A stretch of DNA of 64,000 bases from Bacteroidota bacterium (GTDB taxonomy: Bacteria > Bacteroidota > Bacteroidia > UBA8524): positions 1 to 64,000 of the forward strand of contig WBUH01000004.1 of the NCBI GenBank assembly GCA_008933805.1, given 5' to 3'. Position 1 is the stretch's first letter; each line of letters starts with the position of its first letter. The notes below the pieces were generated by a model. It was not told the DNA's origin, made no database searches, and saw only the letters and a program-made list of their open reading frames with translations. The position numbers and the translations under genes were made by a program. Shown in pieces: positions 1,647 through 5,852 of the stretch.

Positions 1647-1853
1647 CGACAGGTATAAAACCTATCGCTTTGGAATTATACAGCGCGGCAGGGTTTTAAA
1701 CCCTGCCGCGCTGAACAACCTTCGCAGAACAGGAATTTATTTCCTGTTCAACTAAACGACAGGTTAAAACCTATCGCTTTTGTAATTACCTCCCCGCGGA
1801 GGACTTAAGTCCTCCGCGGGGAGGTAATTGTAATAGAACCGGATTTTAATCCG
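1647..1853. repeat. Composite palindromic repeat, copy 1
   Basis: Gene-free DNA between the FtsH-like lipoprotein and kbl. It holds, in order: a GGTATAAAACC short palindrome (1647-1667), a perfect 33-base palindrome (1681-1713), a hairpin (1727-1749), a second short palindrome with GGTTAAAACC (1757-1776), the linker tatcgcttttgt, a perfect 46-base palindrome (1784-1829) with ends AATTAC and core GACTTAAGTC, and a last short palindrome (1840-1853). The last three parts recur, with different arm sequences, at 3219-3316 and 5784-5852. The remainder of 1598-1997 shows only a possible -7 box (TAATTTTG, 1960-1967) for kbl. Confidence 0.9.
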
Positions 1854-3218: not shown

Positions 3219-3316
3219 ATGGGGTTAAAACCCCATACTGATACAATTACTGTTAGAAAGAAGACTTAAGTCTTCTTTCTAACAGTAATCACAAAAGCAA
3301 CAGGTTTTAACCTGTT
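3219..3316. repeat. Composite palindromic repeat, copy 2
   Basis: Short palindrome ATGGGGTTAAAACCCCAT (3219-3236), then a perfect 44-base palindrome (3246-3289) with ends ATTAC and core GACTTAAGTC, then a short palindrome AACAGGTTTTAACCTGTT (3299-3316). Read on the minus strand, the order short palindrome, gcttttgtg linker, long palindrome matches copies 1 and 3, so this copy is mainly inverted relative to copy 1 across kbl. It also carries a short palindrome on its other side. The 12-base variable arm differs wholly from the other two copies yet stays fully self-complementary. Confidence 0.9.
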
Positions 3317-3383: not shown

Positions 3384-4094
3384 TTGAAACCAACTGCCGA
3401 AGTCATTCTTTCGCCCGCTTTAGTGCCTTACTACGATTTACAGGGCAAAGTAGTAGTGGTAATTGATATACTGCGCGCTACTACTACCATGTGTTATGCG
3501 TTTATGAACGGTGCGGAGCGGATTATACCCATTGAAAGTATTGAGGAGGCTAAAACGTATTTAGGCAAAGATTATGTGGTGGCAGCGGAACGTGAGGGAT
3601 TGGTAGCTGAAGGGTTTACACTGGGTAATTCGCCGGAAAGCTTTACCCCCGAGATTGTGAACGGAAAAACCGTGGTATTAACCACCACTAACGGCACTTA
3701 TACCCTGCACCAGTGCAAGGCTGCTGATAAAATTGTTACGGGTGCATTTACCAACATAAGCGCGTTGTGTAATTGGCTGGTAGGCTGGAATCAGCCCGTT
3801 GTTTTGGCTTGTGCAGGCTGGAAGAATAAATTTAATCTTGAAGATACGGTGTTTGCAGGGGCGGTATTACATACCATCCGCGAGCATTTTAATCTTGAAA
3901 GTGACAGCTGCGTAGCTGCATTGAACTTGTTTTTAACAGCATCGCAAAACCTTGAGGGATATATGCGCCACAGCAACCATGCCCAACGTTTTGAAAAGCT
4001 GGGAATTGATGATTTACCCACTTGCCTTAAACTGGATGTAACGGATATTGTACCGTTTTATAGTGAGGGGGTGTTAGTGCCGTTGAAAGTTTAG
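3384..4094 (+). CDS. comB: 2-phosphosulfolactate phosphatase family protein (ComB)
   Basis: Mg-dependent phosphatase family. In methanogens it makes sulfolactate for coenzyme M; in Bacteroidota the substrate is not settled, and no other coenzyme M genes are seen here. 236 residues, normal length. Family signatures are VVVIDILRATTTMCYAF near the N-terminus, TTNGTYTLHQC and CAGWKNKFNLEDTVFAG. The start is TTG at 3384, since no in-frame ATG precedes the conserved N-terminal block. It is followed by the long inverted-repeat element at 4122-4547. Confidence 0.92.
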   Translation: MKPTAEVILSPALVPYYDLQGKVVVVIDILRATTTMCYAFMNGAERIIPIESIEEAKTYLGKDYVVAAEREGLVAEGFTLGNSPESFTPEIVNGKTVVLTTTNGTYTLHQCKAADKIVTGAFTNISALCNWLVGWNQPVVLACAGWKNKFNLEDTVFAGAVLHTIREHFNLESDSCVAALNLFLTASQNLEGYMRHSNHAQRFEKLGIDDLPTCLKLDVTDIVPFYSEGVLVPLKV

Positions 4095-4121
4095 TTTTGA
4101 TCAAACAAAACTTCTATTTTA

Positions 4122-4547
4122 TTTTCCTTTTGAGGGGCAAAAGGAAACAAAACCCTTCGTCCTGTTAGGCGTTTTGTCAGCACACAAACAGCACCGTTAT
4201 AAAATTTGCTGTTGCTTGGTAATTTTTAAACAGACAAAGTTCTCCACCCATTATTAGCTCTTAAAAATTACGCTATGCAACCGGCGCACAAACCTACGCT
4301 CAATTTTATAACTGCACACGCTTTACAGGACGTTATGCTGAGGCGAAAGCATAGAGGGCATTTGAGAAATATTCTTTTAAAACAAGGAAGCAGGGTTGGG
4401 GAAAGACAAAACAGGTCTTAGCAGCGGAGGGTTAGTTTGTGCGGTTGGGCAAGTTGTTTTGTCGGAGGTTGAGGGTTCCGTAGTTTTATAGAAAATTTCT
4501 CACAGCCTGCCTTTTTTTGGTTCTTTTTTGGGCAAGCAAAAAAGAAC
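4122..4547. other. Non-coding element made of nested inverted repeats
   Basis: Fills the gap between convergent genes (ends at 4094 and 4556); no coding frame seen. Five stem modules follow one another. (1) Hairpin 4123-4131/4139-4147. (2) A 175-base stem-loop with four nested stems: CGTCCTGT 4158-4165 with 4325-4332, GTTATAAAATT 4196-4206 with 4302-4312, GTTGC 4211-4215 with 4277-4281, GTAATTTTTAA 4219-4229 with 4261-4271. (3) Hairpin TATGCT/AGCATA 4334-4353. (4) A 140-base stem-loop: about 20 pairs between 4363-4383 and 4483-4502, GGAA/TTCC at 4386-4389/4476-4479, and GACAAAAC 4405-4412 with 4456-4463. (5) Hairpin GTTCTTTTTT 4520-4529 with 4538-4547. It could be a non-autonomous mobile element, a structured RNA, or both. 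Confidence 0.75.
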
Positions 4548-4555
4548 AAATTAAA

Positions 4556-5719
4556 CTAAAACCTCTTCAATACCGCCTTCTTTACCCAAGAAAGACCTGC
4601 AAAACGGGCAGCTGCATTTACAATCCAAGGTTGTTTGTTTAGCAGGCGCATTAAGCGGTAGTTACGGCGCAGTTCTGCACCGTATTTTGCGTACACGGTA
4701 TCATCGTACCCTTTTATAAATTCTACTGAAAAATTATTGTTCGTAAAGCATTCTGTGGCTTTTTGCGCAGCAAACATTCCGCTATATACGGCTTTATCAA
4801 TGCCGTGGCCTTGTAAAGGGTCAATCAACGATGCCGCATCTCCTGCCAGCATATACCCCTCCCCGCTAATAGGGGCATTTTTACCACCTATGGGCAGACC
4901 AAATCCTTTTACTTCACCGGTTTGTATAGCGTTTGTAAACATTGGTGCTACGGCAGACTCGTTGGCAATTATACTATCCATCACCTCGCGCAGTTTAATA
5001 TTGTGCTTGGCCGCTTCGCTGGCTACAATGCCAAACCCTACATTAAACGTATTGTTTCCGAGCGGGAACACCCAAAAATAGCCGGGCAGGTAGTTATTAA
5101 ACAGGTAAAATTTATTGGTCAGGTTATCGCTGATAATCCCTGTGTAGTAGGCTGCAACAGCAGTGCAATAACGCTCGCGGTTGATGGGACTGTTATCAAG
5201 ATACTTTGCTAATACTGAATTAGCACCGTCGCACCCGATAACAAAACGGGCTTGGATGTTCTCATCACTGTTCCGTTTTTTCAGCAACCACAAGTTGTTT
5301 TCTTTGGTTATCTGCCCCACTTCAAACCCTTCAAAAACTTCGGTAGCCGTATGTTTTTTTACTTGTGAGAACAGGAAACCGTCAAAATCCAACCGCGGTG
5401 AGTTGTAGGCTTCTGCTTTCCATTCAATATCAATTACCTTGTTATTAGGGGCAACAATCTGGCAATATTTAATAGACTGCTTCAGTGTTAGCTGTTGCAG
5501 TTCTTCATTAAAATCGGGGATAATTTGTCGCAGTGCTTTAAGTGTCGGGCCGGGTATGGCATCGCCGCAGGTTTTGTGGCGAGGGAAACCTGCCTTATCT
5601 ATCAGGGCAACTTTTAAACCACTGTTTTTCAGCGTCAATGCTGCACTGCTACCCGCAGGGCCTGCCCCCAATATTGCTATGTCAAACAAATTTGCCAACG
5701 CACAAACATACAATTGCAA
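4556..5719 (-). CDS. FAD-dependent oxidoreductase, geranylgeranyl reductase family
   Basis: 387 residues. N-terminal FAD dinucleotide-binding motif ILGAGPAGSSAA (about 17-28), then KTCGDAIPGPTL, and the family's second FAD motif LAGDAASLIDPLQGHGIDKA in the C-terminal half. Relatives reduce isoprenoid double bonds, as in menaquinone or lipid tails, or hydroxylate aromatics; the substrate cannot be told from sequence. The annotated ATG (5719) gives a 12-residue lead; TTG at 5689, directly before FDIAILGAG, would be a tighter start. Confidence 0.85.
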   Translation of the reverse strand: MQLYVCALANLFDIAILGAGPAGSSAALTLKNSGLKVALIDKAGFPRHKTCGDAIPGPTLKALRQIIPDFNEELQQLTLKQSIKYCQIVAPNNKVIDIEWKAEAYNSPRLDFDGFLFSQVKKHTATEVFEGFEVGQITKENNLWLLKKRNSDENIQARFVIGCDGANSVLAKYLDNSPINRERYCTAVAAYYTGIISDNLTNKFYLFNNYLPGYFWVFPLGNNTFNVGFGIVASEAAKHNIKLREVMDSIIANESAVAPMFTNAIQTGEVKGFGLPIGGKNAPISGEGYMLAGDAASLIDPLQGHGIDKAVYSGMFAAQKATECFTNNNFSVEFIKGYDDTVYAKYGAELRRNYRLMRLLNKQPWIVNAAARFAGLSWVKKAVLKRF

Positions 5720-5783
5720 GCACTTCTAATAAAAGCTACTTCACACATAAAAATCAGAAAATTTATTTTCATACTGCCGCCAA

Positions 5784-5852
5784 GGGTTAAAACCCCTCGC
5801 TTTTGCAATTACAACAAGGAGTAGGACTTAAGTCCTACTCCTTGTTGTAATT
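5784..5852. repeat. Composite palindromic repeat, copy 3
   Basis: Short palindrome GGGTTAAAACCC (5784-5795), linker ctcgcttttgc, then a perfect 46-base palindrome (5807-5852) with ends AATTAC and core GACTTAAGTC. Same order and orientation as copy 1. It lies between the divergent FAD reductase and CNNM genes, so it is not acting simply as a terminator for a convergent pair. Confidence 0.9.

Follow-up and report, generated by a model that had tools for sequence, protein, structure and literature searches.

A probable family of folded, non-autonomous mobile repeats with knotted hairpin ends in Bacteroidota genomes

Overview

The interval between two genes in a 64,000-nucleotide stretch of a Bacteroidota genome (contig WBUH01000004.1, hereafter the window) probably holds an old copy of a family of non-autonomous, non-coding, folded mobile repeats of the Bacteroidota. 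The basic unit would be a module of ~140-250 bp with a long, interrupted stem-loop and, after it, a knotted hairpin, in which a segment X, a pyrimidine run L1 and a first arm would precede a loop X', complementary to X, and a second arm. Dimers of the type found in the genome G001 would be cut and pasted in trans by the DDE transposase of the IS1595-family element of G001, and the window dimer may have arrived in the past in the same general way, having since lost such ends or never having had them. The folded state may be kept by selection or by copying, and the fold, as single-stranded DNA or RNA, may be needed for propagation or for tolerance beside genes.

The window element and its locus

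The preliminary description had recorded a gene-free element of nested inverted repeats at this site. All of the described parts are found (Table 1), with the extent of the element nearer 4118-4555; the arms of the outer hairpins lie at 4118-4132/4138-4152 on the left and 4512-4530/4537-4555 on the right. The element occupies almost the entire interval between the stop codons at 4094 and 4556 of two convergent genes, the ComB-family gene stopping 24 bp before it and the right hairpin lying only 8 bp from the adjoining stop codon. The list of open reading frames contains none of at least 80 aa inside 4118-4555, the element being non-coding and shorter than 1 kb. The C-terminal residues of the geranylgeranyl reductase align with those of homologues, and the element therefore starts beyond the native stop. 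Synteny yielded no empty site, as the geranylgeranyl-reductase homologues in relatives (~40% identity) do not adjoin comB.

Table 1. Features of the window element and its neighbouring genes (window coordinates)
Feature	Coordinates	Strand	Evidence
2-Phosphosulfolactate phosphatase (ComB) family gene, left neighbour, intact	3384-4094	+	ORF; PF04029 E 3.8e-70
Left module: stem-loop 1 and left pseudoknot end (T-type end read on - strand)	4118-4337	-	75%-identical second copy; five compensated pairs
Left terminal hairpin, stem 4123-4132/4138-4147, loop AGGGG 4133-4137	4123-4147	-	inverted-repeat search, fold
Left pseudoknot partner CCCTT 4153-4157 and A-rich linker 4148-4152 (TTTTG on - strand)	4148-4157	-	sequence
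Stem-loop 1, nested stems 4158-4172/4318-4332, 4196-4206/4302-4312, 4219-4229/4261-4271	4158-4332	-	pairs 13/15, 11/11 and 11/11, respectively
Mid hairpin TATGCT-GAGGCGAA-AGCATA between the two module heads	4334-4353		fold
Right module: stem-loop 2 and right pseudoknot end	4358-4550	+	end-motif score; plan as in G060 monomers
Stem-loop 2, arms 4363-4389/4476-4502 and 4405-4413/4455-4463	4363-4502	+	pairs 78% of 27 and 9/9, respectively
Pseudoknot strand X (TGCC 4508-4511) and T-run L1 (4512-4518)	4508-4519	+	X pairs with GGCA 4531-4534
Right terminal hairpin GTTCTTTTTTG/CAAAAAAGAAC, loop holding X' (4531-4534)	4520-4547	+
Inverted 17-nt match (14/17) between module apical parts 4285-4301 and 4427-4443	4285-4443
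Geranylgeranyl-reductase family gene, right neighbour, intact	4556-5719	-	TIGR02032 E 3.7e-56

The density of pairing had been judged far above chance, which holds for the inverted repeats. When helices with 9 or more perfect pairs and arms separated by 10-200 nt are counted, the tile that overlaps the element has five, whereas the 553 tiles of the 64 kb that form the background average 0.41 (sd 0.73) and no other tile reaches five. The judgement does not extend to the global folding energy, which is moderate (z -2.4 on either strand, with 3 and 2 of 100 shuffles equally good).

The two modules follow a shared plan, which in the right module is also the plan of monomers in another genome (G060, below), and the inverted match between their apical parts is a hint of homology at the sequence level, the overall alignment of left versus right module being weak. 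On the strength of this plan and this match, the best reading of the element is an inverted dimer, head to head, of a single structured repeat module. The mid hairpin between the module heads is preceded by CGTT and, by eye only, resembles CGTC-type REPs (PMC3733652), while the knotted ends were seen on inspection to lack GTAG. Three more intergenic palindromes lie in the window (1764-1849, 3223-3312 and 5780-5852), whose arms read TTAAAACC.. and whose centre resembles GGACTTAAGTCC; they probably constitute a REP-type family of the window genome, unrelated to the element.

An element that fills the gap between both stop codons might also be a domesticated bidirectional terminator or boundary between the two convergent genes, whatever its origin, but this is very doubtful, given that G+C-rich hairpins leading into a T-run yield a single weak terminator-like site where 1.2 are expected, and given the occurrence of homologues in all gene arrangements. 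An intrinsic terminator or promoter was rejected on the same count, there being no excess of such sites.

The knotted end

The outer hairpins had been noted to look alike in inverted order, and the likeness goes deeper, as both loops also pair with a segment across a T-rich linker. At the right end, the loop GGCA is complementary to the TGCC directly before the T-run. The left end shows the same order on the opposite strand (AGGG - TTTTG - arm - CCCT - arm), with CCCTT complementary to the hairpin loop, one of the pairs being G-T. The right end scores 61.4 bits (E 7.4e-11) against the end-motif model, its own sequence being among those from which the model was built.

In relatives, the corresponding X/X' pairs differ in sequence and remain complementary, including GTCC/GGAC, GGCC/GGCC, GCCC/GGGC, TTGAC/GTCAA, CTTGAA/TTCAAG, CTTGAT/ATCAAG and TCGCC/GGCGA. 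Among 122 non-redundant ends, gathered without requiring X-X' pairing, none of 2000 permutations of the upstream segments matches the observed complementarity between X and the loop. The length of the T-run also tracks that of the A-run in the stem (r 0.41, 0/5000 permutations), and C positions in L1 tend to face G in the purine arm (p 0.008, in a small set with three hand-added ends). These sequence patterns fit an H-type pseudoknot at each module end, its loop pairing with a segment across the T-run and the pairing covarying across Bacteroidota. L1 may form a T.A-T triplex by occupying the major groove of the A-T-rich stem.

The knot is altered in many copies, in which small G+C palindromes (TCCGCCGCGGCGGA, TCCCGCAGGTGCGGGA, TTCCCGCCGAAGGGCGGGA) replace its X or L1 portion, as if swapped in there (loci L186-L200 in the genome G192, and L048, L052 and L064 in G247). 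About ten G192 copies carry one common small palindrome instead of the right X/L1, and thus seem to have multiplied after loss of the knot, an intact knot being unneeded for their multiplication.

Module forms and stem covariation

Two copies were found in the window genome, and the second, at contig position 73476-73697, comprises just the left module, at 75% identity. Five compensated pairs separate it from the left module of the window, its changes including C-G to A-T in the base stem and G-C to A-T in the middle stem of stem-loop 1. In G060, at least 15 discrete monomers of 138-142 bp have the form GTGCGGTGGGTAGTCCACG... ...CGTGGTGTC-TTTTTT-GGTTACTTTTTGGACAAGCAAAAAGTAAT, and their stems vary while preserving complementarity (91% of cells are paired and 10 pairs are doubly changed), with a covariation score of 0.190 versus 0.076 for shuffled and at most 0.068 for slid controls. 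Tandem copies ~250 bp apart occur in REEB404. Inverted doublets and singlets thus both exist, as the window dimer, the 73476 monomer, the G060 monomers and the G192 dimers. For G192 alone, the folding model brings no covariation gain (+0.64), its copies being too young. The G192 copies that consist of the left module only start mostly at the hairpin, and not at a terminal inverted repeat (TIR); several of them (L203-L215) end near TTTTAATTCATNATTTAAGATGAT, a small hairpin which may be the other monomer boundary in this genome.

Homologues with compensatory changes, whose absence, along with that of transcription, would have left the element as a product of local decay in the preliminary description, therefore exist, and the pairing that they keep goes halfway towards supporting its suggestion of a large structured RNA. 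A transcribed element of this kind, regulatory or stabilizing at 3' ends, with a triplex pseudoknot that would protect these ends in both directions by virtue of the inverted ends, is consistent with the covariation in the X/X' ends, the G060 monomers and the two window-genome copies, with the matched T- and A-runs and the facing C and G positions, and with the location of the window copy between convergent genes. It is nevertheless unlikely as judged from sequence, because the orientation of flanking genes is unbiased (++ 29, +- 20, -- 20, -+ 15), terminator-like sites are not above the level of shuffles, internal promoters are lacking, and the Rfam search proposed earlier, carried out with the window and ten related loci, gives no match to any family. 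A fixed-orientation 3'-UTR element was rejected on these gene arrangements, and a known RNA family on the Rfam result.

Mobility

The other suggestion made at the outset, a non-autonomous mobile element, is borne out by relatives, which are multi-copy, lack open reading frames, and include copies with TIRs, 8-bp duplications and a matching IS1595-family element; the window copy itself shows neither TIRs nor a duplication. In G192, about 17 full-length copies measure ~500 bp each; their terminal repeats, TTTGCATTAGNAAAATGTAGGTTTT, are located ~45 bp outside the hairpins, and target duplications of 8-9 bp accompany them (permutation p < 1e-4). No autonomous element with the G192 TIR is present in G192 or in 36 congeners.

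The second case is G001, a sister genome from the window genome's own family, in which 20-odd long copies of ~490 bp have terminal repeats CATGTGTATCCG.../...CGGAGACTCATG and 8-bp duplications, exact in 5 of the 10 testable copies (p < 5e-5). The search with these terminal repeats also yields a 1.0-kb insertion sequence with TIR CATGAGTCTCCG and duplication AAATCCAT, encoding a 311-aa transposase of the IS1595 family (NF033547, E 1.4e-44) with an N-terminal zinc-ribbon domain. Members of the IS1595 family usually generate 8-bp duplications and mostly possess such a domain (PMC8101967, PMC12561309). As G001 contains a complete IS1595-family element whose terminal repeats are those of the dimers, the G001 dimers would be MITEs moved in trans, and an IS1595-type MITE is the best reading of the G001 dimer.

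The window copy has no recognizable terminal repeats, showing just an 8-nt match (TTTAGTTT/AAACTAAA) over both stop codons, and no 8-bp target duplication was seen when its flanks were compared by eye; it is thus probably an old copy. The window genome contains no match to the G001 TIR pattern. Neither terminal repeats nor target duplications accompany the G060 monomers (permutation p 0.73-0.98), and IS1595 therefore cannot account for every copy. The terminal repeats are genome-specific and the knot is class-wide. Either the interior of a common MITE ancestor was retained as the ends diverged, or the monomer is self-mobile and sometimes captured.

The latter possibility corresponds to a tentative alternative, in which the monomers form a REP-like superfamily, each itself mobile as folded single-stranded DNA through its knotted hairpin by the action of an HUH-type or other enzyme, leaving no TIR or duplication, while the inverted dimers are REPIN-like and the IS1595 packaging in G001 and G192 is a secondary capture. 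It draws on the discrete TIR-less and duplication-less monomers of G060, the hairpin starts of the left-module-only G192 copies, the tandem copies of REEB404 (~250 bp apart), the head-to-head dimers as known for REPs (PMC3733652), and an end motif that outlasts the genome-specific TIRs. On the other side, the RAYT group-5-like genes of these genomes have short palindromes of other kinds on their flanks and not this module, REEB404 has no match to a Y1 transposase despite its several copies, and no enzyme has been identified. Its fullest version, an unrecognized Bacteroidota repeat superfamily whose monomer, ending in a triple-helix-capable pseudoknot, spreads single-stranded without TIRs or duplications and forms REPIN-like dimers sometimes captured by IS1595, is possible rather than probable.

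RAYT/Y1 transposases (PF01797) were rejected as mobilizers of the module: their genes occur in 12 of 13 genomes, but other palindromes flank them, although subclass 2.6 of Bacteroidetes had looked promising as a lead (PMC6006769). There are 12 RAYT-like loci with such palindromes, and the lone nearby module (L090 in G001) is an ordinary TIR-bearing copy. The RAYT-like genes at L084, L086, L091 and L093 are flanked by repeated short palindromes, among them CGCAGGATTGCAAATCCTGCG, CGCAGGACGGAGTCCTGCG, CTCGTTGCAAACGAG and CCGTAACCGTTACGG.

Distribution

With a covariance model built for the 45-nt end (R1; threshold E <= 1e-4), the motif is detected in 101 of 395 Bacteroidia genomes, about a quarter of those sampled, and in 64 of 197 genera; the E-values are rough, and some of the scanned genomes contributed sequences to the model. 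When 84,980 species genomes were scanned for an exact pattern, matches came from Bacteroidota only, the carriers belonging to Chitinophagaceae, Saprospiraceae, Ferruginibacter, Limnovirga soli and unplaced MAGs. Phage and plasmid collections contain no match, and phage or plasmid cargo was rejected as an explanation. Viral contigs likewise contain no match to the exact pattern used for them, which contained a superfluous base and would fail to detect even the end of the window element itself. In the MAG SZAS-44 (L026, L033, L035, L038 and L039), contigs end at the knotted hairpin, indicating that repeats were collapsed in assembly and that copy numbers are underestimated.

Significance and comparison with known systems

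A constant knotted end thus recurs in about a quarter of the sampled Bacteroidia genomes and is absent from the RNA catalogue searched (Rfam). The open literature was found to contain no description of the knotted end, of stem covariation within a genome, or of the monomer, dimer and packaged forms, and the repeat family is apparently undescribed; this novelty is provisional, resting on a search of the open literature. Repeats of this kind break assemblies and may give rise to spurious annotation. Should the knot be read in single-stranded form, as DNA or RNA, the family offers a direct test of how a mobile element's end is set by structure rather than sequence, and G001, which contains both the non-autonomous dimers and the matching IS1595 element, makes the mobilization step testable now.

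In kind, the family belongs to the non-autonomous interspersed repeats, falling between MITEs and REP/REPINs. Its end recalls the triple-helix H-type pseudoknots of telomerase RNA and ENE elements, which have the order X - pyrimidine loop - arm - X' - purine arm, the loop being able to lie on the A-rich strand. By contrast, the present case is the end of a DNA-level repeat found in inverted copies, for which the triplex is predicted, and no homology is implied.

BrickBuilt and other MITEs of Porphyromonas gingivalis share the occurrence in Bacteroidota, the intergenic location and a multiplicity of about 19 copies in one genome (PMC4596501). They differ in having 12-bp terminal repeats of the IS5 type, contain 23-nt tandem repeats, and are reported only from Porphyromonas, knotted hairpins not being described for them in the sections consulted (PMC4596501). 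The REP/REPIN (BIME) sequences mobilized by RAYT (TnpA-REP) are also intergenic palindromes dispersed in the genome, singly and as inverted pairs, and RAYTs of group 5, or subclass 2.6, of Bacteroidetes are associated with ‘atypical structures’ (PMC6006769). The present module is several times longer, has a pseudoknotted end versus the tagged simple hairpin of REPs, and is distinct from the palindromes that flank the RAYT genes examined.

With IS1595-family MITEs, the repeats share a length of a few hundred bp, the absence of open reading frames, TIRs, 8-bp A/T-rich duplications and, in G001, a cognate insertion sequence. They differ in including TIR-less monomers, the window copy being TIR-less as well, and in having a conserved folded interior with knotted hairpins that is common to elements with unrelated TIRs.
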